A DNA stretch of 46,844 nucleotides from contig JAUYJO010000213.1 of assembly GCA_030700315.1 (NCBI GenBank), forward strand, positions 1-46,844. Direction: 5' to 3'. Position numbers and translations under genes: made by a program. Positions 1,547 through 43,800 of the stretch are shown in pieces. Source of the stretch: Gallionella sp. (GTDB lineage: Bacteria; Pseudomonadota; Gammaproteobacteria; Burkholderiales; Gallionellaceae). The notes beneath the pieces are model-generated. The model saw nothing but the letters and a program-made list of their open reading frames with translations, had not been told where the DNA came from and made no database searches. Numbering within the stretch: position 1 is the stretch's first letter; the number at the start of each line of letters is the position of its first letter.

Positions 1547-1750
1547 GACGGGCATGGCTAAAATGTTGTCTTTGATTATTAAACCCGCCATGCCCGTCGC
1601 CCTCACCCCAACCCTCTGGGTGAAACAACTAGCCATTCGACTAGGCTGCCAGAAACTGCAGCCAAGTCGCTGGTTATCCCGCTGGCGGGGAGAGCGAAGC
1701 GAGGGGGGCGTAGCCGGGCGAACGAATCGCTGCGCGAGTTTTACGTTAAC
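1547..1750 (-). repeat. Family C repeat, inverted copy interrupted by element X
   Basis: Read on the minus strand this is the same repeat as at 466 and 30414. The hairpin stem that normally reads CTCTCCCGC is split after CTCT by element X (1621-1677), and family C sequence resumes with CCCGCTGGCGGGG. It fills the cheR-cheD gap. Confidence 0.8.
1621..1677 (+). repeat. Element X, copy 1 (57 nt structured palindrome)
   Basis: It runs from TGAAACAACTAGCC to GCTGGTTAT. Predicted pairing: AACTAGC with GCTGGTT, a CATT bulge, CGACTAGG with CCAAGTCG (one A-A mismatch), then an apical stem CTGC/GCAG closed by an eight-base loop. It is inserted in the stem of a family C repeat at the same position as copy 2 at 19383. 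Confidence 0.85.
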
Positions 1751-1776
1751 GGCGGGCAGGAAAGGGATGCTGCGGC

Positions 1777-2391
1777 ATGACTGATCACGGCTACGAAGAA
1801 GTCCTGGCGCCGAACCTGTATTATGACCAGCAGCATGATTCCGAGGCGGCCAAGATATTGCCCGGCGAATATTATGCGACGACGCGCGACATGCTGCTGG
1901 TGACCGTGCTCGGCTCCTGCGTCTGCGCGTGCATACGCGACAAGGTCAGCGGGATTGGCGGCATGAATCATTTCATGCTGCCGGATGCGGGGCAGGACCA
2001 GAACAATCCGCTCGGCGCTTCGGCGCGCTATGGAGCTTATGCGATGGAAATATTGATTAACCAGTTGCTCAAGATGGGCGCGAAGCGCGGCAATTTTGAG
2101 GCAAAAGTATTCGGTGGCGGGGCGGTGTTGCGCGGTTTCACCGTCGCCAACATCGGCGAGCGCAATGCCGATTTTGTGCTGAAATTTCTCGATATGGAAA
2201 AAATTCCGGTCGCCGCGCAGGATTTGCTCGATATTTACCCGCGCAAGGTATATTTCTTTCCCCGTACCGGCCTGGTCAGGGTGAAGAAGCTGAGAAGGGT
2301 GCATAACGATACAATTATCAGCCGCGAATCCGAATACGTGACGCGGCTGCATTTCGCCAAAGTGGAAGGCGATGTGGAGTTGTTTACATAG
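1777..2391 (+). CDS. cheD: Chemoreceptor glutamine deamidase CheD
   Basis: This 204-residue protein belongs to the CheD family, which deamidates receptor glutamines to glutamates so that CheR and CheB can act on them. The catalytic cysteine lies in VLGSCVCAC (about residue 48) and the catalytic histidine in GIGGMNHFMLP (about 66). NFEAKVFGGGAVL and the C-terminal GLVRVKKLRR are also typical of the family. The start has an AGGAAAGGG ribosome site about ten bases upstream. Its position between cheR and cheB is the usual one in proteobacterial adaptation operons. The N-terminal 25 residues before the core are longer than in short CheD proteins. Confidence 0.93.
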   Translation: MTDHGYEEVLAPNLYYDQQHDSEAAKILPGEYYATTRDMLLVTVLGSCVCACIRDKVSGIGGMNHFMLPDAGQDQNNPLGASARYGAYAMEILINQLLKMGAKRGNFEAKVFGGGAVLRGFTVANIGERNADFVLKFLDMEKIPVAAQDLLDIYPRKVYFFPRTGLVRVKKLRRVHNDTIISRESEYVTRLHFAKVEGDVELFT

Positions 2392-2393
2392 AA

Positions 2394-2495
2394 GTAACTA
2401 CTCAGGCGCAGCCGCTTTTCTCCTTCCCCCTTGCAGGGGGAAGGGACTGGCGTTGTGGCTATTTTCGAGCATACTGCTTCGACCTGAGTAGTTAC
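2394..2495. repeat. Family E inverted repeat with inner hairpin
   Basis: A perfect 13 bp inverted repeat, GTAACTACTCAGG at 2394-2406 and CCTGAGTAGTTAC at 2483-2495, encloses a second hairpin of the type CTTCCCCCTTGCAGGGGGAAG. The element lies between cheD and cheB. Half-copies of the arm occur at 3906-3918 and 15655-15665. It may attenuate read-through into cheB. Confidence 0.75.
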
Positions 2496-2524
2496 ACTTA
2501 GGGATTGGTTGAATAAAGGCGAGC

Positions 2525-3613
2525 ATGGTAAACCGTAAAATAAAAGTGCTGGTGATTGACGATTCCGCGCTGATCCGCAGCGTGATGAAGGAATTGATCG
2601 ACCGGGAAAAGGATATGGAATGCGTGGGCGCGGCGCCCGATCCGCTGGTGGCGCGCGAGATGATCAAGGAGCTTAACCCGGACGTGCTGACGCTGGACGT
2701 GGAAATGCCCAAGATGGACGGGATTGATTTTCTGGAGCGCTTGATGCGCTTGCGCCCGATGCCGGTGCTGATGGTTTCCACGCTGACGGAACGCGGTTCT
2801 GACATCACGTTTCGCGCGCTGGCGCTGGGGGCGGTGGATTTTGTCTCCAAGCCGAAGATGGACATCGCGCGCGGCATGGAGGAGTATGCCATCGAGATAA
2901 CCGACAAGATTCGCGCCGCCGCGCAGTCGCATGTGCGTAAAACGCCTACCGCAGCGGTAATCCAGGAGAAGTTTTCGGCGGATGCGATTCTGCCCAGCGT
3001 CGCGGGGCGTTTTTCCACCACGGAAAAGCTCCTTATCATCGGCGCCTCGACAGGCGGCACCGAGGCGATCAAGGAGGTGCTGATCCGTCTGCCCGCCGAC
3101 ATGCCGGGTATTCTGGTGACACAGCACATGCCGGAAAATTTCACCAAATCATTTGCCGAGCGGCTGGACAGCCTGTGCAAGATTTCGGTCAAGGAGGCGG
3201 CGCATAATGAGCGGATATTGCCGGGCCATGCCTACATCGCGCCGGGGCATTCGCACCTGCTGCTCAAGCGCAGCGGAGCGAACTACATGACCGAGCTGAA
3301 CCAGGGACCGCCGGTCAACCGCCATCGCCCGTCGGTGGACGTGCTGTTCCGTTCGGCAGCCAATGTCGCCGGGGCGAACGCGATGGGCATCATCCTCACC
3401 GGCATGGGCAAGGATGGCGCGCAAGGCTTGCTGGAAATGAAACAGGCCGGCGCGCATACCATCGCGCAGGACGAGGCGAGTTGTGTGGTGTTTGGCATGC
3501 CCAGGGAGGCCATTGCGGTGGGCGGCGCATGCGAAGTGTTGCCGTTGCAGAATATCGCGCGCCGCACGCTGGAATATCTGGCATTGCATAATGGCAAGAG
3601 CAATCGCGTTTAA
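2525..3613 (+). CDS. cheB: Chemotaxis response regulator protein-glutamate methylesterase CheB
   Basis: This 362-residue protein removes methyl groups from chemoreceptors and can deamidate them. The N-terminal receiver (about residues 5-125) has the acidic pair in VIDDSALIR, the phospho-acceptor Asp in [12 protein letters not shown] and the switch lysine in FVSKPK. The C-terminal esterase (about 165-355) shows the catalytic triad: Ser in [10 protein letters not shown], His in VTQHMPENF and Asp in [10 protein letters not shown] kinase such as CheA, not in the window, would phosphorylate it. Length and domain order are standard. The start follows AAAGGCGAGC. Confidence 0.95.
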
Positions 3614-3716
3614 CCCGGATTTTCCATCGAGATGAAACAACTGACGTGAAACAACATCAAATCCCCCCAACCCCCCTTTTTCAAAGGGGGGCATCTATCT
3701 CCGGGTGTGGTGGAAC

Positions 3717-3888
3717 AACCCCCTTTGAAAAAGGGGGTGGAGCGAAGCGGAGGGGGATTTACAGCAGGTGGCGAGAGAGTGGCGCACTTCAAATCCCCCT
3801 CGGTTCCCCTTTTGCAAAGCATGTCCTGAGCTTGCCGAAGTGGGGGGAAGCGAAGTGCTCGGCGCGCAGGGGCGGACGTTGGTATCTG
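3717..3888 (+). repeat. Family D repeat, copy 1
   Basis: The 3614-3948 gap is wholly repeat sequence: hairpins of the CCCCCTTTTTCAAAGGGGG type (3660-3740), then a unit of about 170 bp that recurs inverted at 9471-9626. Shared landmarks are AGGGGGATTTACAGCAGGTG, GAGAGAGTGGCGCACTTCAA and GACGTTGGTATCTG. A short family J unit (GTCCTGAGCTTGCCGAAG, 3824-3841) is inserted here but absent from the other copy. Confidence 0.8.
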
Positions 3889-3948
3889 GCGGGGGAGTTT
3901 TTTTCGACCTGAGTAGTTGCGTTTTATTTATTCACATAAGGAGTAGTC

Positions 3949-4266
3949 ATGACTATCAATGTACAAATTCAGGGCAACGTGGCGCGTATCGATATGTATG
4001 GGCGTTTCGATTTTCAGGTGCATCGCGAATTCAAGGATGCCTACACGCCGCTGCTCGACAATTCTGCGGTACGCGAGATCGAGATCGAAATGAGCCGGGT
4101 GGATTACCTGGACAGCTCCGCGCTGGGCATGTTGATGCTGCTCAACGAGCGCGCCAAGGCGGCCGGCAAACCGGTCACGCTGCTCAACACCTCCGGCGTG
4201 GTGTCGCAGGTGCTGGGTGTCGCCAATTTCAGCAAGATTTTTAACATCAAGCAGACAGGTTCCTAG
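3949..4266 (+). CDS. STAS-domain anti-sigma-factor antagonist-like protein
   Basis: This 105-residue protein is a single STAS domain, the fold of SpoIIAA-type antagonists that bind HATPase-type anti-sigma kinases when unphosphorylated. The phosphorylatable serine pair lies in VDYLDSSALGMLMLLNERA (about residues 58-60), followed by the usual GKPVTLLN strand. An AAGGAG ribosome site sits five bases before the ATG. The next gene encodes a protein with both PP2C phosphatase and HATPase domains, so the two probably form a partner-switch pair within the chemotaxis locus. Its final target cannot be told from the sequence. Confidence 0.85.
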   Translation: MTINVQIQGNVARIDMYGRFDFQVHREFKDAYTPLLDNSAVREIEIEMSRVDYLDSSALGMLMLLNERAKAAGKPVTLLNTSGVVSQVLGVANFSKIFNIKQTGS

Positions 4267-4269
4267 AGG

Positions 4270-4370
4270 GCGGATGACAGAAAACAGAGGGCAGAAGACA
4301 GTAGTGTTGCTGCGGCTGCGCCGCCTCTTTATAAAGAGCGCCCCGCAGCGCGGTACGCCGCTTTCCTTCC
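4270..4370 (+). repeat. Family F repeat (ACAGAGGACAGA type), copy 1
   Basis: It begins with a purine-rich run, GATGACAGAAAACAGAGGGC, followed by GCTGCGGCTGCGCCGC and a hairpin GCGCCCCGCAGCGCGGTACG. Related blocks lie between flhB and flhA (10950-11059) and between fliA and motC (16577-16744). All three are located between genes read in the same direction. Confidence 0.6.
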
Positions 4371-4389
4371 TTTGGTTCGAGTATCGATC

Positions 4390-6906
4390 ATGCGATTAAA
4401 CCTGCCGGTTTCCAATATTGAGGTCACGTTGCCGGATGGCGTGGTGATCGTTTCCAAGACCGACCTCAAAGGTGTTATCACTTATTGCAATAAGGCGTTC
4501 GTCGAAATAAGCGGGCGCAGCCGCGAGGAAATTATCGGTTCGCCGCACAATATTGTGCGCCACCCCGATATGCCGCCCGAGGTGTTTGCCGATCTGTGGA
4601 AAACCATCAAGGCCAACAAGCCCTGGCAGGGGTTGGTCAAGAACCGGCGCAAGGACGGCAGTTTCTACTGGGCGGTATCCAATATCACGCCATTGCTGGC
4701 GAACGGCAAAGCCATCGGCTATGTGGCATTCCGCTACAAGGCCACACCCGGGCAAATCGAGTCTGCCACGGAGGCCTACCGGCAAATCCGCGAGGGTTCT
4801 GCCAGGCTGCGTATCGAAGAAGGCAATATCGTCAAAATCAAGAGCCCGCTGCTGCACTGGTTGAGCGCCGCCAGCGTCAAGGCGCGGCTGTTTGCGCTCA
4901 TCTTCGTCCTGTTGGGCGCAATGGTCGTGACCGGTATTTTCAACCTGTATGAAGCCGAAAAAGCCCATCAGCGCACCGTGAATGGCATGGCGCTATCCAG
5001 CATCCAGGCCTATGCGCTGGACACTGCGCGCATGGCGGCAACCGCCTATCACGAGCAATTGCATACCTGGAAGGACGTGCTGATTTACGGTCGCGACGCG
5101 GCTTCCTTCAGGATGAATCTGGAAAAATTTGACCGGCAAGGTGAGGCAGTCGATCAACAACTGGCCGGCCACCTGAAGCCCATCATGCTGCAACTCGACA
5201 TGCCGGTCGATGGGGTGGATGCGTTGCTGAACGCGCATGTCCAACTGGTCCAGCGCCATCATCGGGCGCTGGAATCCTTCGATGCGCGCAAGCCGGAAAC
5301 CCGGCTGGTGGCGGATGATCTGGTCAGGGGCATCGACTTGTCGGTGGACGAACAGTTCCACGCCGTCATCGCGGATATCCGCGCGGCGCAGCTTCACGGG
5401 CTGGGAGAGATGAATGAAATGCTGGAGCTGTCCCACCACGAACAATTCAAGCGATCTTCCCGGATATTGGCGGCCTTCGCGCTGGGCGGGCTGGTGTTGT
5501 CGGTGTGGTTTATCGTCGGCATATTGAGGCCGATCCGCCGCGCCAGCAGCAGCCTGGACCGGGTGGTGCAACTGCAGCAGCAGTTCCTCGAAAAAATCCT
5601 GGCGCTCGAAGAGCATCATGACCGCCTCGACGAGGAGCAGCGTATCGGCAGCTACATCATGGCGCATATCACCAATGTTCACGGCGCATTGGATCCGCTG
5701 GTGCGGCATATCATCAGGCCGGCGGAGCACCTGAGCGGCGACATGCTGCTCGCGGCGCGCACCCCGGACGACGAGCTGCATATTCTGCTGGCCGACGCGG
5801 TGGGTCACGGGCTGGTCGCGGCGGTCAACGTCCTGCCGCTCAGCCAGGCGTTTTACGAGATGTCCGAAAAGGGCTTCCGTATCGCCGAAATCGCGCAAGA
5901 GTTGAACCTGAAAATCCATCAGCTCATGCCGGTGGATCGTTTTGTCGCGACCACCCTGATTTCAGTCAATATGCGCAACCGTGTCGTCGAGGTGTGGAAC
6001 GGCGGCAATCCGGCACCCTTGCTGGTGGGCAAAAATGGGGAGATTCTGCACGAATGGAAATCGGCCAACCTGCCGTTGGGCATCTTGCCGGGCGAGAGTT
6101 TTTCCGGCAAGACGGAAGCTTTTCAATATGACGAAAACTGCCAGTTGTGCCTGTTTTCGGACGGCTTGCCGGAGGCCGAATCGCCGCAGGGCGAGCAGTT
6201 TGGCAAGGAGCGAATTGGCAGAATGCTGCACGACAGCGAGCCGGATGACCGCTTCGAAAATATGATGAGCTTGTTGGATATGCATTTGGCCGGGAAACCG
6301 GCGCATGACGATATTTCGCTGGCGATAGTCGATGTCCAAATCTACCGCCTCACGGAGACGGTTGCGCCCGCAGTGGCACAAGCGCCGGTCCAGGCGGTGC
6401 AGGCGGGCGGCGGCAATTGGAAAATCGAGATCAGCCTGAGTGCGACCGAATTGAAATACCTCAACATCGTCCCGATGCTGACCGGCATCATCGAGAAAAT
6501 CCATGTCGCCAACGAATTCGCCGCGCCGCTATTCATGATCCTGTCCGAACTGTTCAACAACGCGCTCGATCACGGCATCCTGCGGCTCGATTCCGGCATC
6601 AAGCAGGGGGTTGACGGCTTCGATAAATTCCTGGAATTGCGCGAAGAACGCCTGCAGGCGCTCGACAACGGGAGGATCGACCTCGAGATCAAGAAGGTGG
6701 CGATCGAGGGGAAATATGGCGTAAGAATCCGTGTGGCCGATAGCGGCAAGGGGTTTAATTATGCGGCGCTTCTGGAAAATGCCGAAAGCCGCATCAAGCA
6801 GGGCGACCAGCATGGGCGCGGCATCAAACTGGTGGAGAGCATGGCTTACAAGCTCGAATACGCGGGGAATGGCAGCGACGTCACCGCCTATTATATTTGC
6901 GCCTGA
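4390..6906 (+). CDS. Membrane-bound Aer-type PAS / SpoIIE-like PP2C phosphatase / HATPase partner-switch protein
   Basis: This large signalling protein has 838 codons from the ATG at 4390; a TTG start six codons earlier is possible but has no better support. Domains in order: an Aer-like PAS (about residues 10-120, with FVEISGRSREEIIG and IVRHPDMPPEVFADLWK, typical of FAD-binding redox/energy sensors), a first membrane segment (about 165-190), a soluble helical sensor region, a second membrane segment (about 365-390), a SpoIIE/PP2C phosphatase (about 440-655, metal-ligand Asp in SGDMLL, LADAVGHG, FSDGLPE, AHDDISLAIV) and a C-terminal HATPase (about 690-838, ELFNNALDHG and GRGIKLVESM). The neighbouring STAS protein is the likely substrate of both phosphatase and kinase activities. 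Confidence 0.85.
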   Translation: MRLNLPVSNIEVTLPDGVVIVSKTDLKGVITYCNKAFVEISGRSREEIIGSPHNIVRHPDMPPEVFADLWKTIKANKPWQGLVKNRRKDGSFYWAVSNITPLLANGKAIGYVAFRYKATPGQIESATEAYRQIREGSARLRIEEGNIVKIKSPLLHWLSAASVKARLFALIFVLLGAMVVTGIFNLYEAEKAHQRTVNGMALSSIQAYALDTARMAATAYHEQLHTWKDVLIYGRDAASFRMNLEKFDRQGEAVDQQLAGHLKPIMLQLDMPVDGVDALLNAHVQLVQRHHRALESFDARKPETRLVADDLVRGIDLSVDEQFHAVIADIRAAQLHGLGEMNEMLELSHHEQFKRSSRILAAFALGGLVLSVWFIVGILRPIRRASSSLDRVVQLQQQFLEKILALEEHHDRLDEEQRIGSYIMAHITNVHGALDPLVRHIIRPAEHLSGDMLLAARTPDDELHILLADAVGHGLVAAVNVLPLSQAFYEMSEKGFRIAEIAQELNLKIHQLMPVDRFVATTLISVNMRNRVVEVWNGGNPAPLLVGKNGEILHEWKSANLPLGILPGESFSGKTEAFQYDENCQLCLFSDGLPEAESPQGEQFGKERIGRMLHDSEPDDRFENMMSLLDMHLAGKPAHDDISLAIVDVQIYRLTETVAPAVAQAPVQAVQAGGGNWKIEISLSATELKYLNIVPMLTGIIEKIHVANEFAAPLFMILSELFNNALDHGILRLDSGIKQGVDGFDKFLELREERLQALDNGRIDLEIKKVAIEGKYGVRIRVADSGKGFNYAALLENAESRIKQGDQHGRGIKLVESMAYKLEYAGNGSDVTAYYICA

Positions 6907-6955
6907 CCCTTATATCCTACCTGATTAGCCACGAAGTTCAGAGCCGTAGGGCGGA

Positions 6956-7066
6956 TGCAAAGTACGTGTGCCCCGGCACCGGTGAGGCCGCAGGCCGTTA
7001 TCCGCCGAATGGAGGTTGTGCGAGAAGCCGGCATACGGCAGATAACGCTGCGCTCATCCGCCCTAC
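6956..7066. repeat. Family G palindromic repeat
   Basis: The ends form a perfect 12 bp inverted repeat, GTAGGGCGGATG (6956) and CATCCGCCCTAC (7055-7066). Inner hairpins include GGCCGCAGGCCG and ACGCTGCGCTC. A related copy starts at 30285. It lies between two genes on the same strand. Confidence 0.75.
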
Positions 7067-7165
7067 ATGCTATCGTGTCGCAGATGTAATGCACTCCATC
7101 GCTACAGAGCCGTAATTCCTTAACCGAGTGCCATGAGCGCCCGCCCTACGGATCAAGAGACTAAA

Positions 7166-9337: not shown

Positions 9338-9408
9338 TGCAATACGCCTGATGCTTGGGCGGTTCGGCATCCGCGTGGGCAAGCGTGCCCACCCCGGCTG
9401 CAAATCAG

Positions 9409-9463: not shown

Positions 9464-9470
9464 CCCCCCG

Positions 9471-9626: not shown

Positions 9627-9763
9627 TCACCCCTCCCAGCCTTCCTCATGCAAGGGGGAAGGAGAAACAGCCACATCTGAATAGTCGCGCCGGAAGCTGC
9701 TAAACAAGTGGAAGAATGACGCAAAGGTTCCTGAATAGATAGGGAATCACCCCGCTATTTGTC

Positions 9764-16576: not shown

Positions 16577-16744
16577 TGAATCAGAGGACAGAAGTTTTGT
16601 CTGCTGCGCAGTGCTTTTTAATCAAGGCGCGGCAAAGCCGCGACAACGCCTCTGTCCTCTGTCCTCTGATGAAACTACTAGCCATTCCACTAGGTTGCCA
16701 AAAGACGGCAACCAAGTGGCTGGTTATGTCTTCTGTCCCCTGTT
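16577..16744 (+). repeat. Family F repeat, copy 3, carrying element X
   Basis: It starts GAATCAGAGGACAGAAGTTT, contains GGCGCGGCAAAGCCGCGAC and TCTGTCCTCTGTCCTCTG, is split by element X (16670-16727), and resumes TCTTCTGTCCCCTG before the motC start. It separates fliA from motC. Confidence 0.65.
16670..16727 (+). repeat. Element X, copy 4 (58 nt)
   Basis: It runs TGAAACTACTAGCC to GGCTGGTTAT. Compared with copies 1-3 the middle stem has changed from CGACT/AGTCG to CCACT/AGTGG and the apical stem to TTGCC/GGCAA. Both are compensatory changes that keep the hairpin. Confidence 0.85.
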
Positions 16745-17485
16745 ATGGATAAGCTCACAATATTGGGTTTGGTTCTCGGTGTGTCCGGCATCATGGCCGG
16801 GCAGTTGCTGGAGGGCGGCGGCTTGTCCATCATGTTCCAGGGTGCGGCTTTCCTGATTGTGTTTGGCGGCACGCTTGGCGCAGTGCTGGTGCAATGCCCC
16901 ACCAAGGTATTTGTCACGGCGATCAAAATGGGGCGCTGGGTGTTTGTAACGCCGACCATGCATAGCCGGGAGTTTGCCAGGCAATTGGCGGAATGGAGCG
17001 TGTTGGCGCGCAAGGAAGGCATTTTGGCGCTGGATGCGCGCATTCCCACCATAAGCGATCCTTTCCTGGCGAGGGGGATGCGCCTGCTGGTGGATGGCAA
17101 CAGTGCCGAAAAAATCCGCGAGGTGCTGGATGTGGATATCCATGCCTGGGAACAGTCGCGCTGGCAGGCGGCGCGCGTGTGGGAAGCGGCTGCCGGATAT
17201 TCTCCCACCATCGGCATTATCGGTGCGATATTGGGCTTGATGCAGGTCATGCAGAATCTCGGCGAGCCGAGCAGATTGGGCGCTGGCATCGCCGTGGCGT
17301 TTGTCGCGACGATTTACGGTGTGGCCTTTGCCAACCTGGTGTTTCTGCCGATTGCGAACAAACTGAAATCCATCATCACGCAGCAGGTGGAAGTGCGTGA
17401 AATGATCGTGGACGGGTTGGTGGGAATCGCCAGCGGAGATAACCCGAGGCTGATCGAAATCAAGCTGCAAGGCTACTTCGATTAA
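16745..17485 (+). CDS. motC: Flagellar motor stator protein MotC (MotA family)
   Basis: This 246-residue membrane protein of the MotA/ExbB family forms the five-fold outer ring of a stator unit. Segments near the N-terminus (ILGLVLGVSGIMAGQLL and GAAFLIVFGGTLGAVLV) and the two later ones (GYSPTIGIIGAILGLMQVM and AVAFVATIYGVAFANLVFL, with the conserved Pro in YSPT) match the four-helix MotA plan. Gene position after fliA is typical for motC. A MotB-type partner (motD) normally follows at once, but here family C repeat and a convergent mtgA follow instead. Confidence 0.9.
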   Translation: MDKLTILGLVLGVSGIMAGQLLEGGGLSIMFQGAAFLIVFGGTLGAVLVQCPTKVFVTAIKMGRWVFVTPTMHSREFARQLAEWSVLARKEGILALDARIPTISDPFLARGMRLLVDGNSAEKIREVLDVDIHAWEQSRWQAARVWEAAAGYSPTIGIIGAILGLMQVMQNLGEPSRLGAGIAVAFVATIYGVAFANLVFLPIANKLKSIITQQVEVREMIVDGLVGIASGDNPRLIEIKLQGYFD

Positions 17486-17622
17486 CGTGAAACTCGCGCA
17501 GCGATTCGTTCGCCTCCTCTCCCGCTAGCGGGAGAGGATTGAGGAGAGGGAGAGCGTAGCGAGGGTTCCGGGCATGACAAGTTTCATAATCAGGTGTGGC
17601 ACACTTGCCATGCCCGTTAGGG
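17482..17622 (+). repeat. Family C repeat, copy 3
   Basis: From TTAACGTGAAACTCGCGC to TTGCCATGCCCGTTAGGG, with the GC hairpin CTCTCCCGCTAGCGGGAGAG. It starts on the motC stop codon and reaches into the last codons of mtgA on the other strand, so it may serve as a shared terminator for the two convergent genes. Confidence 0.8.
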
Positions 17623-19311: not shown

Positions 19312-19517
19312 CAATGTGAAACTTGCGCAGCGATTCGTTTGTCTGGCTACGCCCCCCTCGCTTCGCTCTCCCCGCTTGCGGGATAACCAGCGACTTGGCT
19401 GCGGTTGTTTGCAGCCTAGTCGAATGGCTAGTTGTTTTATCCAGAGGATTGAGGTGAGGGAACGGGCATGATAAATTTCATTGTAAAGGATAGCTGCTTG
19501 TCATGCCCGTTCTCGGT
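19312..19517 (+). repeat. Family C repeat, copy 4, carrying element X
   Basis: From GTGAAACTTGCGCAGCGATT, through CCCCGCTTGCGGG, which is interrupted by element X, and then AGAGGATTGAGGTGAGGG to TCATGCCCGTTCTCGG. The insertion point in the family C hairpin is the same as in the 1547 copy. Confidence 0.8.
19383..19439 (-). repeat. Element X, copy 2 (57 nt)
   Basis: On the minus strand it runs TAAAACAACTAGCC to GCTGGTTAT with apical stem GCTGC/GCAGC and loop AAACAACC. Outside it, GGATAA and TTATCC extend the pairing. Copy 1 has the same stems but a different loop. Confidence 0.85.
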
Positions 19518-19520: not shown

Positions 19521-19632
19521 TCCCGGATTTTCCATTAGCCCTTGGGCTTTCAAAAATCAAGGGGTTGTAGGTCGGGTTTTAACCCGACATGTCGGGCTGA
19601 AGCCCGACCTACGCTCTAATGGGAAATCCGGG
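19521..19632 (+). repeat. Family A compound palindrome, copy 2
   Basis: Outer arms TCCCGGATTTTCCATTAG and ATGGGAAATCCGGG enclose the GTAGGTCGGGTTTTAACCC and GTCGGGCTGAAGCCCGACC core. It ends on the base before the tonB-like stop codon. With the family C copy it fills the whole 19306-19632 gap. Confidence 0.85.
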
Positions 19633-23898: not shown

Positions 23899-24010
23899 CC
23901 CGGATTTTCCATTAGAGCGTAGGTCGGGCTTCAGCCCGACATGTCGGGTTAAAACCCGACCTACAACCCATTGATTTTGTAATGCCTCAAGAGCTAATGG
24001 ATTATCTGGG
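23899..24010 (-). repeat. Family A compound palindrome, copy 3 (inverted)
   Basis: Arms CCCGGATTTTCCATTAG and CTAATGGATTATCTGGG enclose the two TCGGG hairpins in inverse order relative to copies 1, 2 and 4. It lies upstream of lipA. Confidence 0.85.
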
Positions 24011-28000: not shown

Positions 28001-29050
28001 ATGTCCGAATTCGACCTGATCCGCCGCTATTTCACTCGTGCCACGCCCGGTGCATTGCTCGGTGTGGGCGACGATGCCGCGCTGCTGCAAGCGAGTGAAG
28101 GCAATGTGCTGGCGGTGTCCACGGACATGCTGGTTTGCGGCACGCACTTTTTGTCCGATGCCGACCCGTTTTTGCTGGGGCACAAGGCTCTCGCGGTGAA
28201 TCTGTCCGATCTGGCGGCGATGGGCGCCGCGCCGCGCTGGGCGACGCTGGCCATCGCCTTGCCCGCTGCGGACGAGATGTGGCTGGCGCAATTCAGCGCG
28301 GGTTTTTTTGCGCTGGCCGACCAGCACGGCGTGGAGCTGGTCGGCGGCGACACCACGCGCGGCCCGCTCAATCTATGCGTGAGCATTTTCGGCGAAGTGC
28401 CCGCACAACAGGCGTTGCGCCGCAGCGGCGCGCAAATCGGCGATGACATCTGGGTGTCGGGATGCCTCGGCGGCGCGGCACTGGCACTGGCGCATCTGCA
28501 AGGCCGCATCGCCTTGTCCGAAGCCGAACTTGCCGCCTGTCTGCCTGCCCTGCATCAACCACAACCGCGCGTGGCGCTGGGGCTGGTGTTGCGCGGCATC
28601 GCCAGCAGCGCAATCGACATTTCCGACGGCTTGCTCGCCGATCTCGGGCATATCCTCGAAGCCTCGCAGGCAGGCGCGGAAATCGAGTTCGCCGCGCTGC
28701 CGGTTTCTGCGGTGTTGCAGGCGTGCCAGACTCCTCCCCTGATAAAACAACTAGCCATTCGACTAGGTCATCAAGAAACGATGACCAAGTCGCTGGTTAT
28801 GATAAGGGGAGGCCGGGAGGGGTTTGGTGTTGAATTTTTTCACCAGCTTATCTTATCCGGCGGCGACGATTACGAATTGTGCTTTACCGCACCTGCCGCG
28901 CAGCACGCAGAATTATCAAATATTTCCGCGCGGCTCGATCTGCCGCTGACCCGCATCGGAAAAATTGTCGCCGGGCGTGGCTGTATCGTGCGCGATGCGT
29001 CAGGCAATCCGCTCGACATCGAGACTGGCGGCTATGACCACTTCCGCTGA
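28001..29050 (+). CDS. thiL: Thiamine-monophosphate kinase with an in-frame repeat insertion
   Basis: This 349-residue enzyme phosphorylates thiamine monophosphate to the diphosphate. The N-terminal [11 protein letters not shown] and [12 protein letters not shown], then [35 protein letters not shown] and [14 protein letters not shown], are all family landmarks. Between the [10 protein letters not shown] strand and SGGDDYEL a stretch of about 33 residues is encoded by dispersed repeats (family H split by element X, 28731-28823). Homologues have only a short loop there, so the insert probably forms a surface extension. All key motifs are intact, and the gene overlaps pgpA by 17 bases. Confidence 0.93.
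28731..28823 (+). repeat. Family H repeat split by element X inside thiL
   Basis: CTCCTCCCCTGA (28731-28742) and GATAAGGGGAGGCCGGGAGG (from 28801) are the halves of a unit that is continuous at 31198-31232 (CTCCTCCCCTGACAAGGGGA onward). Element X lies exactly between them. Confidence 0.85.
28743..28800 (+). repeat. Element X, copy 3, translated within thiL
   Basis: It runs TAAAACAACTAGCC to GCTGGTTAT with apical stem TCATC/GATGA, a compensated variant of GCTGC/GCAGC. It is read in the frame AAA-CAA-CTA-GCC and gives [19 protein letters not shown] in ThiL. Confidence 0.9.
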
Positions 29051-30284: not shown

Positions 30285-30575
30285 GTAGGCCGGAAAAGCG
30301 CAGCGCCTTCCGACACCTTCATGTCGGATAACGCTGCGCTCATCGCCGTGTGGTTAGCAGCAGTTTATGCGGCAAGATGCTTTGGAGTATACTTTTCCCG
30401 GTGTCGTTATTCGTTAACGTGAAATTCGCGTAGCGGTTCGTTCGCCTGGCTCCGCCCCCCTCGCTTCGCTCTCCCCGCTTGCGGGAGAGGATTGAGGAGA
30501 GGGAGAGCGTAGCGAGGGTTCCGGGCATGGCGAGTTTAATTATCAGGGGGGTGGCTTCTCGCCATGCCCGTTAGG
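30285..30575. repeat. Intergenic repeats: family G-like unit and family C copy 5
   Basis: In the 30200-30628 gap, GTAGGCCGGAAAAGCGCAGC to GATAACGCTGCGCTCATCG (30285-30341) is a family G-like palindrome. From 30414 a complete family C copy runs GTTAACGTGAAATTCGCG to CTCGCCATGCCCGTTAGG without element X, giving the uninterrupted reference for the 1547 and 19312 copies. A GCAAACCGTGGTCTCC fragment follows at 30583. Confidence 0.75.
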
Positions 30576-36804: not shown

Positions 36805-36806
36805 GC

Positions 36807-37034
36807 CTAGCGCGGCGTGGACAGGAGTTTCGCTTTGAGTTGCGAGAAGCTAACGCCCGGCTCGTCGGGATTGGCGCGGTGATGGGCAAGACGGGAACGA
36901 AGCTCGGTGCGTTGGGCTTCGGTGATGAGGGATGCCGAGGCTTCACTTTCGGCGCTGACAATCAACGCCTCGCCGAGTGACCGCCTTTCAGCGACGCTCA
37001 GGTGTTCAAGCTCTTCGAATAGGTGCGTATTCAT
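36807..37034 (-). CDS. Antitoxin of the ParE-type module (addiction-module component family)
   Basis: This 75-residue protein from the ATG at 37034 (MNTHLFEELEHLSVAERRSL) has the pattern of the short addiction-module component antitoxins that pair with RelE/ParE toxins: an N-terminal LSVAERRSLGEAL segment and a C-terminal toxin-binding part (HHRANPDEPGVSFSQLKAKL). It is transcribed ahead of the toxin with a three-base gap. The open frame extends 13 codons upstream without a better start. Confidence 0.83.
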   Translation of the reverse strand: MNTHLFEELEHLSVAERRSLGEALIVSAESEASASLITEAQRTELRSRLAHHRANPDEPGVSFSQLKAKLLSTPR

Positions 37035-37283
37035 GTTTGTTAGCGTAGCACGAAAAATAAGCGTGTGGTGCAAAAACGATGTGGCGATTTACGATGTATT
37101 CGCGCAAATTTGGCAAGGCCGCTTGCCCTTTGTTTGTTTCCTTTGTTTGTGCCTTTGTTTGCGGTTGTCATATTGCCCGCGTGGGGCGCAATCGTTATTG
37201 CCTCCCAACGCTGACCGTAAATACGCAAACCCGTTTGAGCCAGATGGGCTAGAATGAAAACTCATTTGAGCAGGAGAGAGATC

Positions 37284-37901
37284 ATGGATAAGCAATCAGC
37301 GGTAACGGTGAAGCCAAAAAAAGTTTCGCTTCGTTCCGGCACAAGCACCAAGCCGACAAAGGCATCTGCTGGTATTGCTGTGACGATGGCAAAAAAAAGC
37401 GTTGCGTGTAGAGAACGGGCAAAGGCCGCACGACAATCCGGAGTTGGCAAGACACCATGCACACGGTCTAACGCATTGACTGCGTCGGGTTTGTATTACG
37501 CTACCGAGCTTGAGCGCGTGATGATCATTCGCCAAGGCGTACCGGCGAGTATCTTGGTGCAGATCGGTCGCGCAATGGGTATTTCTAACGAGTTGTTGTT
37601 TTCCACGCTGGCGCTTCCCAGGTCGACGATGGTGCGCAAGATTCAAAACCATGAGGCGTTATCCGCCGAGCAATCTGAGCGGGTGGTGGGGCTGGAGCGT
37701 CTTGTGGGGCAGGTTGAGGCGATGGTGAAACAGTCCGGCAACGCGGAAGGTTTCGATGCCGGGCGCTGGGTGGGTGACTGGCTGCAACGGCCATTGCCTG
37801 CGCTGGGCGGTAAAAAGCCCGCCGAATTTATGGATACGATGGAAGGCCAAAATCTGGTTGCCCGCTTCCTGGCGCAATCCCAGTCCGGGGCGTATGCCTG
37901 A
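37284..37901 (+). CDS. Xre/MbcA-ParS-type antitoxin (DUF2384)
   Basis: This 205-residue protein starts at the ATG at 37284 behind an AGGAGAG ribosome site. A basic N-terminal tail is followed by an Xre-like helix-turn-helix (about residues 75-125, LVQIGRAMGISNELLFSTLA) and the toxin-binding domain typical of this family (SEQSERVVGLERLVGQVEAM, then RWVGDWLQRPLPALGGKKPAEFMDT). Its stop overlaps the ATG of the RES-domain gene. This is the standard layout of a Xre-RES toxin-antitoxin pair. Confidence 0.9.
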   Translation: MDKQSAVTVKPKKVSLRSGTSTKPTKASAGIAVTMAKKSVACRERAKAARQSGVGKTPCTRSNALTASGLYYATELERVMIIRQGVPASILVQIGRAMGISNELLFSTLALPRSTMVRKIQNHEALSAEQSERVVGLERLVGQVEAMVKQSGNAEGFDAGRWVGDWLQRPLPALGGKKPAEFMDTMEGQNLVARFLAQSQSGAYA

Positions 37902-38386
37902 TGCGGGTCTGGCGTATCGCCACGCAAGCACCGGATTACGCTGCTGACGATCTTTCGGGTGCGGGCGCGAAAATCACGGGTGGCCGGTGGAACCAACGGG
38001 GCGTGCCGGTACTTTATTGTTCCGATACGCCTTCGCTTGCTTGCCTTGAGACTTTGGTTCATCTCGATGTTGGCGGCCTGCCGCTATATCGTTTCCTGGT
38101 CGCAATCGACATTCCTGAAAAGGTGTGGAAAGTACGAACGATTGCGACGGTGCAATCGCTTGAATCCGGGTGGGATGCTTTCCTAGCCGAAAATGCCAGC
38201 GTTGATTTTGGCAGCCAATGGGCGATGTCCAATAAGTCGGCAGTGTTGGTTGTGCCATCCGCCATCGTGCCGGAAGATTCGGTCATTCTGCTTAACCCCA
38301 AGCATTCTGATATTTCTCGCATCACTGCCACAAAGGTGCGCCGGTGGACATACGACGCGAGACTGGTCAAACCTGTAGCAAGTTAA
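37901..38386 (+). CDS. RES-domain toxin (NAD+-degrading family)
   Basis: This 161-residue protein carries the RES domain: MRVWRIATQAPDYAADDLSG, then GGRWNQRGVPVLYCSDTPSL and ACLETLVHL, with the conserved Arg, Tyr and Glu of the active site in place. Members of this family deplete NAD+ by phosphorolysis or hydrolysis. The antitoxin precedes it with a one-base overlap. A family A repeat begins right after the stop and may terminate the operon. Confidence 0.9.
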   Translation: MRVWRIATQAPDYAADDLSGAGAKITGGRWNQRGVPVLYCSDTPSLACLETLVHLDVGGLPLYRFLVAIDIPEKVWKVRTIATVQSLESGWDAFLAENASVDFGSQWAMSNKSAVLVVPSAIVPEDSVILLNPKHSDISRITATKVRRWTYDARLVKPVAS

Positions 38387-38500
38387 ACCCAGATAATCCA
38401 TTAGCTCTTGAGGCATTGCAAAATCAATGGGTTGCAGGTCGGGTTTTAACCCGACATGTCGTGCTGAAGCCCGACCTACGCCCAAATGGATTATCTGGGA
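38387..38500 (+). repeat. Family A compound palindrome, copy 4
   Basis: Arms CCCAGATAATCCATTAGC and AATGGATTATCTGGG enclose the GGTCGGGTTTTAACCCGACA core (one G to T change in the second hairpin). It fits exactly between the RES stop and the stop codon of the convergent response-regulator gene, so it probably terminates both. Confidence 0.88.
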
Positions 38501-39634
38501 TTAATGTAGCGTTTGAACCACCTTGCTGAGCAAGGTGTCACGGTCGAAAGGTTTTACCACGAAACCGACTGCACCGGCATTCAAGCTTTCTATGACGATG
38601 TTCTTGTCGCTCTTGCCAGTCATCATGATAATGGGAATGTCGGCCAATTGGGGCGCACTCTTTATGTACCGCACCACTTCCAAGCCATCCATATCGGGCA
38701 TCATGACATCCATCAGGATGAGGCTCGGGTGAGTCTTGCGCATGATTTTCAAAGCCTCGATACCGCTGCCAGCGAACGTCAAATGATAGCCCTTGTGCTC
38801 CAGTATTTGGCCCACGATTCTATGCTGGAACTCGTCATCGTCCACCACCAGCACAATAGGCTGGACGCGCCCCGCCATCGCCCCAAGGGCACGCGCCGAT
38901 TCCAGGTGCGGCGTACATTCCCGCCTTAGCTCCTGCGCCCACTGTTTAAGGGGTTTGACGGATTCGGATGCAGCATGAAACTGCCGCTGCACCTCATCGC
39001 GCTTTATGCGGTTGATTTCTGTTCTCAGATCGCCTTGGACCAACTGCCGTGAAAAACCGTCGAGTGCCGCACCGATTTTTTGTTCTGCCTGCGTCACGGC
39101 TTGGCTGGTCGCTTCGATCTGTTGGCTGCCGCGTACCATCTGCCGCTCCAGCATTGTTTCCAGTTCAGCCAGACGCCGTGCTTGCGCGGCAAATTCCGCT
39201 GCAGTCGGTTCGCCAGTCTTGGTGACCGCCAATTCGCGCAGCGCATGGTATACAGACATCGGCAAGCGCGTTGTATCGTAAGTCATCGGCCAGAACAGTA
39301 TGTAATCGTCGAAGAGTTCTTTCTTGCACAGATTGTAAACATGCTTCACCTCATCCTTGTTGCACAAAATCACGGTACGGTGTGGCTGCGTATGTATTTT
39401 GCGGCTGCAACGGTAAAGCTCGAGATAATAGCGTTCCGATTTCCCCAAGCTGTTGAATGCCAGCATCAGCACCTCCGGCATGTGGAGTTCGAAATCTGCC
39501 ACCGCCTTGTCAGGATCGGTGGAAGTAACGACATGGCAGAATTCGGTATCCAGATGTTTTTTGATGAGATCGGCATCGGTCACATTGTCCGTGACGATCA
39601 TGATATGTGCGGCGGCAAGATCACGAGATGTCAT
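38501..39634 (-). CDS. Double-receiver response regulator with degenerate N-terminal receiver
   Basis: This 377-residue protein has two receiver-like domains joined by a helical, probably coiled-coil linker (about residues 140-250). The N-terminal one (about 8-125) lacks the phospho-acceptor: where LxLD is expected it reads VLMLAFNSLG. The C-terminal receiver (about 258-375) is intact, with LVVDDDEFQHRIV, LILMDVMMPDMDG, MMTGKSDK and FVVKPFD. There is no output domain. AGGAGG lies nine bases before the start. It is the third gene behind the hybrid kinase and the REC-EAL protein and may act as a phosphate sink or scaffold in that relay. Confidence 0.85.
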   Translation of the reverse strand: MTSRDLAAAHIMIVTDNVTDADLIKKHLDTEFCHVVTSTDPDKAVADFELHMPEVLMLAFNSLGKSERYYLELYRCSRKIHTQPHRTVILCNKDEVKHVYNLCKKELFDDYILFWPMTYDTTRLPMSVYHALRELAVTKTGEPTAAEFAAQARRLAELETMLERQMVRGSQQIEATSQAVTQAEQKIGAALDGFSRQLVQGDLRTEINRIKRDEVQRQFHAASESVKPLKQWAQELRRECTPHLESARALGAMAGRVQPIVLVVDDDEFQHRIVGQILEHKGYHLTFAGSGIEALKIMRKTHPSLILMDVMMPDMDGLEVVRYIKSAPQLADIPIIMMTGKSDKNIVIESLNAGAVGFVVKPFDRDTLLSKVVQTLH

Positions 39635-39667
39635 GGCGGAAAGCCTCCTGCGATAGCGATATTATTT

Positions 39668-40870
39668 TCATCTCCGGGCATGGCCGACCTGTATCCAGCC
39701 AGCCAAGTCGGTGGCAGGCATCGGCTCGGCAATGAGATAACCCTGGGCAAGATCGCACCCGCTCCGGCATAGGAAGTCCCAGTCGTCGCGATCCTCCACG
39801 CCTTCCGCGACGGTCTCCATGTTCAACTGCCTCGCGAGGGACAGACTGGCATCGAATTTTGCCTGTTTCGCCCCATCGGACGAAACGTGATGCACGAAAC
39901 TCCGGTCGATCTTGACCTCGTCGAAAGGAATATTGCGCAACTGTTCCGGCAAGATATGTCCGTAACCGAAATCGTCAATAGACAGGCGGAACCGTTTCAG
40001 GCGCAGGCGGGTCAAGGTTTCCAGCAAGGCGCGCAAGTCGCACGACATGATGCGGCTCTCCGCAACCTCTAGCACGACTTGTTGCGGAGCCACTCCTGCC
40101 GTCGCGGCAAGGTCGGAAATGAAATCCGCAAACTCCAACGAAACCAGATTGTTTATCGATACATTGACGGCCAACTGCAGCGCCAGCCCGGTTTCCTGCC
40201 AAAGCCTCGCCTGGGCGAATGCGCTGCTCAATACCACGCGGGCCAGATCGTCGATCAGGCCATATTCTTCCGCCGCACCGACAAAATCGCCAGGCAACAG
40301 CAGCCCATCGCTGGGGTGTTGCCAGCGCACCAGCGCTTCCGCACCCATCACACGACCGGTGGCAATCACCACCTTGGGCTGATAATAATTGACCAGCTCG
40401 CCTTTTTTGATGGCGGCGCGCAATTCGGTCGCGCCGTAAACTTTTGTTGCAGCCCGCAATGGATTACCCTGCGATGGTGGCGGCCATTTCCCGATCAACG
40501 CAACCAGCCTATCTGGAGCAACTGGCTTGCGTAAGCTCCCAAGCAGCGTAAGCCGGTGCGCATGCACCAGATTCTCGGCAACCTGCAAAACCCGCTCATC
40601 TTCTCCGCTGACCAGTATCAGGCCGCCTTTATAGCTTCGCTCGACCAAGTGGCGCACAAACTCGCCACCGTCCATTCCCGGCATGTTCAGATCCAGCAGA
40701 ATCAGATCCGGATGCCTGCCGGAATTGTCGATACGCTCCAGCGCGGCATGGCCGTCATCGCAGGTGGCGACATGCGTGAAACCCGAATTGGCCAGCATCC
40801 GTATGAGCAGCTTGAGCGAGAAAAAGTCGTCGTCAACTATCAGTATCCGGATTGCCGATTTTTCTGCCAT
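39668..40870 (-). CDS. REC-EAL response regulator, c-di-GMP phosphodiesterase type
   Basis: This 400-residue protein starts at the ATG at 40870 behind AAGGGGGAAATC. The receiver (about residues 5-125) shows LIVDDDFFSLKLL, LILLDLNMPGMDG, LVSGEDER and the lysine in LRKPVAPD. The EAL domain (about 150-395) keeps AEALVRWQHP, NVSINNL, LEVAESRIM, SIDDFGYGH, VKIDRSFVHH and AEGVED, so it should hydrolyse c-di-GMP, although the DDFG loop departs from the usual DDFGTGYSSL. It begins 12 bases after the hybrid kinase stop, so the kinase is its likely phosphodonor. A paralogue is encoded at 45463-46695. Confidence 0.9.
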   Translation of the reverse strand: MAEKSAIRILIVDDDFFSLKLLIRMLANSGFTHVATCDDGHAALERIDNSGRHPDLILLDLNMPGMDGGEFVRHLVERSYKGGLILVSGEDERVLQVAENLVHAHRLTLLGSLRKPVAPDRLVALIGKWPPPSQGNPLRAATKVYGATELRAAIKKGELVNYYQPKVVIATGRVMGAEALVRWQHPSDGLLLPGDFVGAAEEYGLIDDLARVVLSSAFAQARLWQETGLALQLAVNVSINNLVSLEFADFISDLAATAGVAPQQVVLEVAESRIMSCDLRALLETLTRLRLKRFRLSIDDFGYGHILPEQLRNIPFDEVKIDRSFVHHVSSDGAKQAKFDASLSLARQLNMETVAEGVEDRDDWDFLCRSGCDLAQGYLIAEPMPATDLAGWIQVGHARR

Positions 40871-40881
40871 GATTTCCCCCT

Positions 40882-43800
40882 TTACCGGAATGCACCAAGA
40901 TAGCGGTCCACGGCAGCCAGTTCTGCCTCGAACCCGAACAGCAGCGCCGCCAGCGCCTCCATGTCGCCCGCCTCGCCCGCCCGCTCCATTGCGGCGCACA
41001 GCTCGCCCAGCGCCAGCGCGCCCACCGAGCGGGATGACGACTTGAGCTTGTGCGCCAGCGCACCGGCAACAGCAGTATCTCCTGCCGCGCAGGCGGTGCG
41101 CAGCTCCGCCGCAATCTTCGCCGCGCTGATGCGGAAGTCATGCAGGAACTCGCGGATCAACGCCCCGTCGTCGCCGATCAACGCCTTGAGCACGTTCACG
41201 TCCACCGCAGCGGGTGCCGGAGCGCCGCAGGTCGGGTTAGCGGAGCGTAACCCGACATCCGCCGCCTCTTGTCGGGTTACGCCCTGCGGGCTAACCCTAC
41301 CTACGCCTTCCCCATGGGATTGAGGGAGGGAGGTGGACGCAACCGGCATCCATTTGTCCAGCATCGCTTTCAGGTTGGCGAGTTGCACCGGCTTGCTCAG
41401 GTAATCGTCCATGCCGATCGCACGGCAGTGATCGGCTTCGCCTTTGAGGGCGTTGGCGGTAATGGCGATGATCGGGATACGCGTTTTGGCGTCGCCTGTT
41501 TTTTCGGCGGCGCGGATCGCTGCGGTCAGTTCGTAGCCGTCCATCCTCGGCATATGCAGGTCGGTGAACAGGAGGCCGTAATCGCCGCTCCGCCAAAGCT
41601 CCAACGCCTCGCGACCGTCGCTGGCGATGTCGGCAATTCGCCCGAGCAATTTGAGTTGTTGCAGGATGACTTTCTGGTTGATCTCGTTGTCTTCGGCGAC
41701 CAGGATCAGGCTGCCTTGTTGGCGCGCATCCTCGCGGGACAACGGCACGAGCGTCGCTTTGATATCGCTGTGCAGGCTTGCCCGGCCAGGCTGTTTGGCC
41801 CGCCCGGCGGCAATCGCCACCGCTTCCAGAAACGCGAGGCGATGCATCGCCTCGGCATCCAGCGCAACCAGGTCGGTTGCAATAATCCGGGGGCGCTGGC
41901 GTCCGCCACGCTCGATGGCGGTGAAGCGCACATCAAGGCCGGGCCGGGCATGGGCGGCGGCGCGTAACTCGCCCAGCGGCGGATTGACGCCCGCAGTGTC
42001 GATGACCACGATACACAGGCCGGGCGGGCGGCCGGCGATCCATTGCCGTGCGGCAGCGATATCCGGCGCTCGCTCGACCGTTGCTCCATCATGCGCGAGA
42101 TAAGCGGCAAGATCGTCGGCCAGGCTTTCCGCGCCGCCCACAACCAAACAATGCAGCCCTGCGATCAGGTTAAGGTTTTGTAGGTCGGGTTTCAACCCGA
42201 CACCATCATCATGCCTGTCCTGAGCTTGTCGAAGCGGTCGGGTTGAAATCCGACCTACATCAATCTGTTCCGGCGGCAAATCGAACGGCAACCGCACGCC
42301 GAACATCGCGCCTTTGCCCGGTTCGCTCCGCACCGTGATTTCGCCGCCCATGATGTTTGCCAACTGGCGGCAGATGGCCAGCCCCAGCCCGGTTCCGCCA
42401 AAATTCCGCGTGGTGGATGAATCGGCTTGGGTAAAGGGGGAAAACAGCCGCGCCTGGGTTTCCTTGTCGATGCCGATGCCGTTGTCGGTCACGCGGAATT
42501 CCAGTGTTACCTGCCCTGTATCCCCCAAACCCGTTCGCCCTGACCCTTCGGCTGCGCTCAGGACTAAAGGCTTTGTCGAAGGGCTGTGTGGTTCGACATA
42601 ACCACCGACTTGGCTGGCGTCTTCTGACAGCCTAGTCGGATGGCTAGTAGTTGCATCAGGCTCGCCACGAACGGGTTTGAGATGTGAGCTATCTTCGACC
42701 AGCACGGCGCGCACCGATACCTTGCCCGGACGGTCCAGCCCGCTGGAAAACTTGATGGCATTGTTCGCCAGGTTGACCAGTATCTGGCGCAACCGCAACG
42801 CATCGCCCATGACTGCCGGGGGGATGACAGGATCGGTGAACAGCGTCAGCTCCACCCCTTTTTTCAGGGCCAGGGGAATCAGGGTTTCGCATGTCCCTTC
42901 CACCACACTGGCTATGGACATGAGCACACTGTCGATCTGGAGTTTGCCGGCCTCGATCTTGGAGAAGTCGAGAATATCGTCGATGATGGCAAGCAGGGAA
43001 AACGCCGAGTCGTGGATGATATTGACCATCTCTGTTTGCTGGCCATTGAGGCTGGTCTGTTGCAGCACATCGACCATGCCGACCACGCCGTTCATCGGGG
43101 TGCGGATCTCGTGGCTCATCGCGGCGAGAAAGGCTGATTTGGCGCGGTTGGCATGGTTGGCATCAAGCCGTGCTTGATCCAATGCAGCGGTGCGCGCCGC
43201 CACTTTTTCTTCCAGCTCATCGTTGAGCTGGAGCAGCTCTGCCTCCATCCGCTTGCGTTCGGTGATGTCCTCCTGGATAGCCAGATAGTTAACCACACGC
43301 CCATCGGCCATGCGCACCGGCGAGACCCACACCGATTCGATGTATTCCCTGCCGTTTTTGCACCGGTTGATGAATTCGCCCTTCCACACTTCGCCTCGGG
43401 TCAGGTGCGCCCACAAGTCGTCGTAGCTTGCCTTCGGGGTTCTGCCGGAATGCAGCAGGCGCGGATTCTGTCCGATAATCTCGGCCAGACTGTAGCCGGA
43501 TGCCTTGACGAAGGCCTCGTTGGCATATTCGATATTTGCACCGAGGTCGGTGATGATGATCGAATTGGGGCTCTGCTCCACCGCCAGCGAGAGCTTGCGC
43601 AAGGAATCTTCGGCCCCCCTGCGCTCGTTGATGTCGTAGCAGGAACCGAGATAGCCTGCAAACTCGCCGTCCAGATCGGTGTATGGCGCGCCGTGATCCA
43701 GTATCCAGTGGTAGCTGCCGTCACGGTGGCGCATGCGGTATTCCATGACAAACGGCTCGCGCCGGTTGAAGGCGGAAAGGAAGGCGCTGAAACTGTGCTC

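Follow-up and report, generated by a model that had tools for sequence, protein, structure and literature searches.

A 60-nucleotide hairpin element inserted after CT, in palindromes and in genes of Gallionella and its relatives

The window analysed here, a 46,844-nt stretch of Gallionella sp. DNA (contig JAUYJO010000213.1 of GenBank assembly GCA_030700315.1), carries five copies of a short palindromic element, named X, which is inserted directly after CT, has a nearly fixed length, and is found in intergenic DNA, in other repeats, in further copies of itself and, in frame, in protein-coding genes. On balance X is taken to be a non-autonomous hairpin resembling the repetitive extragenic palindromes (REPs), and a Y1 enzyme similar to TnpA-REP, acting in trans and cutting between C and T, would move it in single-stranded form. 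The original prediction, made from the letters of the window, had placed all five copies correctly but gave them a length of 57-58 nt; the boundaries drawn from empty sites extend each of them to 60 nt, with CT directly on the 5' side in 5/5 cases.

X folds into a bulged hairpin in which TAGCCA is set against TGGTTA, followed by a two-against-one bulge, the middle stem CGACT/AGTCG, an A/A mismatch, a seven-pair apical stem, and a loop of seven bases. The hairpin, whose foot is CCA/TGG, is preceded by a leader of 11-12 nt, of the GRTGRAACNAC type, which ends in or abuts CTAG, and is followed by a TTAT tail; the whole can equally be described as TGRTG..GGTTA set between C and T. All five window copies fold better than dinucleotide shuffles, with z from -3.06 to -5.17 for DNA and from -3.22 to -5.63 for RNA (forward strand). 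The paired changes stated originally, CGACT/AGTCG to CCACT/AGTGG in the copy at 16670 and CTGC/GCAG, TCATC/GATGA or TTGCC/GGCAA in the apical stem, were all found again. The sets used here for lengths, leaders, flanks, palindromic targets, recency, and covariation consist of fetched copies, are enriched for high scorers, and were obtained with search expressions that require conserved arms. Among 402 matches, 319 are 60 nt long, 51 are scored as 59 nt, and 27, with a shorter apical hairpin, are 54 nt; 41 of the 51 have one extra G after CT, which makes them 60 nt by the empty-site boundary. CTAG is present in 410 of 419 copies, selected with up to four mismatches over 16 positions, CTAG among them, and in 70 of 77 non-redundant copies.

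The mobility of X is best seen at sites where it is missing. The original prediction had allowed that X might prove to be part of a longer repeat, and the window copies at 1621 and 19383 are indeed embedded in a longer repeat shared by both, a point it had missed; nevertheless, X is a unit of its own, because the same repeat site occurs three times in the window without it (Table 1). Within about 344 kb of own-genome loci (overlapping loci included), the class iii flanking repeat, CAATCCTCT^CCCGC or CAACCCTCT^CCCGC (^, junction), is found in five X-free copies, and the class i flanking repeat, AAACCCCT^CCCGG or similar, in six. An orthologous pair of occupied and empty sites is provided by thiL, which reads CCTCCCCT-[X]-GATAAGGGGAGGCCGGGAGGGGTT in the window and CCTCACCT-GATAAGGGGAGGCCGGGAGGGGTT in the orthologue L291, whose junction is CCTCACCT^GATAAGGGGAGG. 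The insertion thus measures 60 nt and is not accompanied by a target duplication, a single T being assignable to either side. The preference for CT is general: among 256 copies grouped into 84 flank clusters, C (77%) or T (23%) occupies position -2, and T (87%) position -1. Moreover, pairs of near-identical X copies (>=95%) lie in unrelated flanks. In genomes bearing genes for REP-associated tyrosine transposases (RAYTs) such pairs number 28/1402 (2.0%) in the own genome, designated G000 in per-genome comparisons, 10/623 (1.6%) in G054, 4/683 (0.6%) in G068, and 2/73 (2.7%) in G057, and in genomes with no detected RAYT, 0/470 in G045, 3/463 (0.65%) in G022, and 0/60 in G047.

Palindromes are a favoured target. 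A perfect inverted repeat of at least 7 bp spans 17 of 115 insertion points as against 67 of 2299 CT controls (p 1.8e-7), an approximately five-fold excess; a single site was taken from each of 115 flank clusters (405 copies), and controls for short loci were drawn from other loci. Rows read by eye place X inside GTAG REPs, TCAGGACAGG-type repeats, GGATTCCCGC..GCGGGAATGAC-type repeats, and C-rich palindromes. X also enters X after CT; the junctions ACTACT^AGCC and CATCTGACT^AACCC lie in the leader and the stem, respectively, and head-to-tail copies are found as well. A sister form, X', with the leader GCTTTGCA, occurs in the loops of GTAG REPs (L108, L111, L121, L129, L132, L133, L134) and of X; it seems to target TA instead of CT, and its presence in the REP loops is possibly one event amplified together with the REP. 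Genome G068 holds arrays of nested X and X' of about 600 nt (L360:1395-1995 and L366:985-1572), in neither of which a reading frame with at most one stop was found, so that they are not taken for parts of an open gene. The window has, in addition, GTAG-type REP hairpin pairs (GTAGGTCGGGTTTTAACCCGAC..) of a separate family at 272-326, 19567-19621, 23919-23973, and 38434-38488.

The hairpin is maintained by compensatory changes. In an alignment of 16 own-genome copies (A5), 97.9% of the cells pair, and the covariation score was reached by none of 500 shuffles; five pairs show double-sided changes, compared with 1.4 expected in shuffles, slid versions of the alignment came nowhere near, and the count of further pair types was matched by 63 of the 500 shuffles. 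Among 77 non-redundant 60-mers the top seven column pairs by corrected mutual information all belong to the stem, with z up to 33, and three of the first 12 covarying pairs link the bulge columns 19, 20, 52, and 53. Mismatches are conserved too: columns 19/53 hold a pyrimidine mismatch in 71/77 copies (T.C in 60, C.T in 11), and columns 25/47 an A.A mismatch, likewise in 71/77. In 133 distinct rows, fitted to the model from 92 of over 300 loci, 96.8% of the cells pair, and double-sided changes affect 16 of the 18 pairs. CTAG, CCA, and TGGTTAT are nearly invariant, and the G of TAGCCA stands opposite T in 75/77 copies although G-C or A-T would pair better, which indicates a constraint on the sequence there beyond pairing. 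The covariation, which the original prediction had staked its case on, is therefore very strong and concentrated in the stem in the own and related genomes, and together with the insertion behaviour it supports the view that the folded form is selected or needed for movement.

A covariance model built from 16 X copies, in line with the search proposed in the original prediction, showed that the family is widespread. It gave at least 137 matches (E <=0.01, partial and variant forms included) in the 3.5-Mb own genome, where 150 of 1436 candidates were scored. Of 199 genomes, among them the own one, at least 112 have matches; 109 of these belong to a single Gallionellaceae-like family and three to further families of the order. 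When up to one mismatch was allowed, the 16-nt core TAGCCATTCGACTAGG was found in at least 103 places in the own genome, as against one for a reversed control, and in at least 102 of 198 genomes. All these are minimum values, as only some of the candidates were scored or listed. A scan of named genomes gave at least 110 X stretches, of which 110 were used in the calculations; the titles of the 80 that were listed are Gallionella, Gallionellales, Gallionellaceae, Nitrosomonadales, Sideroxydans, and Ferrigenium, with a few stretches under Sulfuricella, Thiobacillus, Sulfuricaulis, Accumulibacter, Betaproteobacteria, Proteobacteria, and Gammaproteobacteria; since all the listed titles are metagenome bins, the stray labels may be binning errors. 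Two plasmid and phage collections searched gave no match, and spread of X via plasmids or phages is not supported; one copy (L138:5606-5655) is situated on a phage-like IMG/VR contig with a lambda-type tape-measure gene.

Genes, too, are hosts of X. For 98 own-genome copies examined, 34 stop-to-stop frames were obtained that comprise, not counting X, 180 codons or more, with 35 or more to either side of it; 18 of the 34 were scanned, and in nine of these Pfam domains flank X on both sides, namely in Mfd, a Mur ligase, GlnE, an HsdR-like protein, MutL, a histidine kinase, PriA, the histidine kinase of the window, and CbiA/GATase_3, in which X is antisense. Elsewhere in the scanned frames AcrB was matched in two stretches, ThiL is shown by its orthologues, and the remaining seven have no match or a domain on one side. 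The peptide encoded in the usual frame is TTSHSTRL..SQVAGY, a second frame is also open, and the third is stopped by the TAG of CTAG (frames read by eye). As 60 nt equals 20 codons and two of the three sense frames are open, X can be tolerated in a protein linker. The gene which, by its domain, we take to be thiL has in its linker a hot spot where different repeats have inserted in frame across Gallionellaceae-like genomes. By eye, 21 of 30 loci (L289-L318) have no insert; a C-rich palindrome without X is present in G017, G018, and G011, X with a further insert in its loop in G016, and other repeat-like inserts in G035, G013, G005, and perhaps G023. A second insertion place near residue 90 of thiL is suggested in G016, G008, and G030. 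In priA, a short-hairpin X is in frame at L015:536-577, and a RAYT gene (1357-1992) lies directly upstream of priA, 780 nt from X.

Table 1. Copies of X, X-free target sites, and host genes in the window
Feature	Position	Strand	Remarks
X copy 1	1618..1677	+	60 nt after CCTCT; within the longer repeat CAACCCTCT^CCCGC..GCGGG; apical stem GCTGC/GCAGC
X copy 2	16668..16727	+	60 nt, flanked by CCTCT and GTCTTCTG repeats; middle stem CCACT/AGTGG; apical stem GGTTGCC/GGCAACC
X copy 3	19383..19442	-	60 nt; composite repeat the same as that of copy 1
X copy 4	28741..28800	+	60 nt, equal to 20 codons; keeps the thiL reading frame; lies within the loop of palindrome CCTCCCCT-GATA-AGGGGAGG; orthologue with empty site
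X copy 5	42598..42657	-	60 nt; in frame in hybrid histidine kinase
Empty class iii target CAATCCTCTCCCGC	533..546	-	X-free repeat
Empty class iii target CAATCCTCTCCCGC	17528..17541	-	X-free repeat
Empty class iii target CAATCCTCTCCCGC	30481..30494	-	X-free repeat
thiL	28001..29050	+	AIR synthase-related N-terminal domain; X in inter-domain linker
Palindrome CCTCCCCT..GATAAGGGGAGG of thiL entered by X	28733..28812 (X included)	+	
Hybrid sensor histidine kinase gene	40882..45162	-	PAS, HisKA, HATPase_c, receiver, Hpt; X separates HisKA from the portion of HATPase_c that was matched

Apart from X, the window contains two similar response-regulator-like genes (39692-40422 and 45523-46250; 72-74% over matched blocks) and a 106-nt repeat, 98% identical, at 45208-45313 and 46739-46844, which suggests a local duplication.

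The mechanism proposed for X is modelled on that of the REPs. According to the available part of one study, TnpA-REP cleaves between C and T, and the GTAG found 5' of the REP hairpin is its proposed guide, A3 and G4 selecting T and C (PMC8266576). Movement of X as a single strand by a Y1 enzyme is favoured because CTAG occupies the place of the GTAG guide and the target is C|T. In this mechanism X would move as folded single-stranded DNA; an HUH tyrosine (Y1) enzyme of the TnpA-REP or IS200/IS605 type, supplied in trans, would cut the target at C|T, and X would be pasted there without target duplication, above chance in hairpin-forming DNA. CTAG would serve as the guide reading CT, with A3 facing T and G4 facing C as proposed for GTAG, and may read the TTA end too. 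The single-stranded intermediate, the type and the trans source of the enzyme, and the guiding role of CTAG are thus the conditional parts of the scheme. It is consistent with the orientation of X on the leading strand in 29 of 42 full-length copies of the complete genomes G040 and G118 (p 0.02; 16/20 in G040), six partial hairpin-only matches being excluded (five in G040, one in G118) and G027 not being counted. The number of X copies also rises with that of RAYTs within the genus (rho 0.36, n=76, with no correction for completeness), while over all 120 genomes of the family rho is 0.14 (p 0.13).

Several observations weigh against this mechanism. The strand bias is not significant in G118 alone (13/22) or by local skew at other loci (77/136), so a strong replication-strand bias is not supported. 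The correlation with RAYT number is lost among the family genomes outside the main genus (rho -0.16, n=44), and seven genomes of the genus g9 have 8-18 RAYT matches and 0 or 1 match to the X core. No match to the RAYT family NF047646 was found in 16 of the 120 family genomes, and the X core is present in 13 of these 16; in eight RAYT-less genomes that were rechecked, PF01797 (E up to 1) was absent from six, two of them 99% complete. In the own genome the 260 nt on either side of each of the five Y1 genes inspected are free of X, the nearest copy being 780 nt off, in priA, and by eye four of the five are accompanied by GTAG hairpins instead, so that X is not supported as the cognate REP of the own-genome RAYTs; four of the five genes score above the NF047646 cut-off, and the genome holds two further NF047646 matches outside this set. 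The 3' end of X is TTAT, not CT. A thermodynamic folding test, run on three sets before the stricter perfect-repeat test, gave no excess of X over random positions, and general insertion into thermodynamically predicted loops is unsupported; an excess was seen in the later test with perfect inverted repeats and CT controls. The contrast in near-identical pairs between RAYT-bearing and RAYT-less genomes is suggestive only, and weak, because the share in G022, which has no RAYT, equals that in G068, which bears RAYTs.

Presence of a RAYT as a simple requirement for X is accordingly not supported, the evidence being two-sided: two of the three sampled genomes without Y1 lack near-identical copies, and G022 resembles G068. 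The presence and absence of RAYTs is not decisive either way, because draft genomes can miss genes and old copies of X can outlive their enzyme. The suggestion that genomes with X carry a Y1/RAYT transposase was neither proved nor refuted.

Some of the same observations are readily accommodated if X is a mobile hairpin moved by an enzyme other than Y1, such as an unknown DDE, serine, Y2, or host enzyme, a serious possibility, albeit one given less credence than transfer by a Y1 enzyme. It would account for the genomes that have X and no detected Y1 gene and for the distance between X and the Y1 genes inspected, and it has a parallel in the CGTC REPs, which are said to have no dedicated transposase in the part of the source available (PMC3733652). 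On the other hand, the C|T target, the tetranucleotide ending in TAG in front of the hairpin, the lack of duplication, and the conserved mismatches all fit TnpA-REP, and the Y1-less genomes G045 and G047, having no near-identical pairs in unrelated flanks, may harbour relics, though G022 has 3/463 such pairs.

Explanations that leave X without movement of its own fare worse. That X owes its retention to a function as RNA or as a regulatory hairpin (terminator, mRNA stabiliser, or small RNA), which the covariation would reflect, would agree with the strength of that covariation, the stable RNA folds, and the many copies outside long open frames; it is considered improbable, as X lies in both orientations relative to neighbouring frames, is read within genes in either of two frames and in one case in antisense, turns up within other repeats and as tandem or nested arrays, at scattered, non-orthologous positions, and has no Rfam match. 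A role in movement is preferred to one as RNA because of the clean empty sites, the CT target, and the near-identical copies in unrelated flanks. Slightly less credible still is the view of X as a passive part of longer composite repeats. Many own-genome copies do share flanks (483 related-flank pairs in G000; classes i and iii), but X-free copies of the repeats and the orthologous empty site in thiL contradict it, as do the 115 flank clusters, the near-identical X in unrelated flanks, and the insertion of X into X.

The original prediction did not recognise the family, and this still holds: Rfam gave no match for the whole window at gathering scores or for 16600-16800 at E up to 1, and X has neither of the tags, GTAG and CGTC, that define the REP superfamilies in the part of PMC3733652 available. 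The same part counts among the CGTC superfamily, which has no dedicated transposase, the Neisseria dRS3 and the Rickettsia palindromic elements (RPEs) RPE-4 and RPE-6, and it describes both kinds of REP as found within genes, many of them for replication and repair, and some as inserted in palindromes. The filing favoured here, based on these partial descriptions, is that X is of the REP/RPE kind but belongs to neither superfamily. With the GTAG REPs and their RAYTs (REPtrons) X shares a short bulged hairpin in high copy number, a tetranucleotide ending in TAG on the 5' side, the C|T site, as judged from the genomic targets of the 84 clusters, the lack of any autonomous copy seen, and occasional residence inside genes and palindromes; like the E. 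coli REPs, it has a conserved irregularity of the hairpin, in its case a covarying stem with kept mismatches. It differs in having CTAG (410/419) instead of GTAG, a TAG that can pair with the TTA tail, a 60-nt unit with a leader of 11-12 nt, and an arrangement in nested single units, not in bacterial interspersed mosaic elements (BIMEs); a flanking cognate RAYT was not seen in the partial test on five own-genome Y1 genes. The CGTC REPs resemble X in being palindromic, in having no known dedicated transposase, and in lying inside genes and, for some families, in palindromes; they belong to another lineage, the leader profile of X has no CGTC tag, and their stem of 8-9 bp and loop of 4-5 nt, as given in the accessible part of PMC3733652, contrast with the 18 pairs and loop of seven in X.

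RPEs, described in part of PMC10969869 as inserted in frame in Rickettsia genes and about 150 bp long, are matched by X in its in-frame residence in unrelated housekeeping genes and its recurrent peptide. The 60-nt length of X, its defined CT site and leader, and its betaproteobacterial host family set it apart from what the partial description tells of RPEs. IS200/IS605 elements are not known to make a target duplication, and X agrees with their miniature forms in this and in a fixed target 5' of the element. Both also have a hairpin with a guide tetranucleotide 5' of it, according to the part of PMC8266576 available. X is one hairpin, whereas the miniature elements have two different ends, and no IS200/605 element sharing the ends of X was noticed among the loci read, in which no dedicated search was run. 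The terminal core sites of integron attC are RYYYAAC and GTTRRRY, and attC was rejected by eye on the consensus of X, no attC search being run, as X ends in GGTTAT and not in GTTRRRY. No X-like element in Gallionellaceae was found among the literature matches listed, the pangenome paper PMC10734462 having been checked for four words only.

The spread of palindromes of the REP and RPE type still awaits an explanation, the mechanism by which REPs disseminate being called poorly understood in the part of PMC8266576 available, and X offers hundreds of copies with exact boundaries and matched empty sites for its study, as well as a series of thiL orthologues that are empty, have the first palindrome only, the palindrome with X, or X with a further insert. 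As X occurs in species with and without candidate enzymes, it would permit a direct test of whether a Y1 enzyme reads the tetranucleotide before the hairpin to pick C|T. It is a speculative and rather doubtful extension that X represents, as the first member to be described, a third superfamily of palindromes, tagged with CTAG and specialised in inserting into hairpins, itself included, in which one CTAG guide would read the C|T target as well as the TTA end, so that a single hairpin would replace the two ends of IS200/IS605, and whose frame-neutral length of 60 nt (also 54 nt) would give rise to recurrent linker peptides of 18-20 residues in essential proteins of Gallionellaceae. X is evidence that in-frame insertion has occurred repeatedly outside Rickettsia in housekeeping genes, those of DNA repair among them, and provides, in a relative of the Gallionella-type iron oxidisers, a new case of tiny parasitic DNA spreading through genomes and reshaping proteins.

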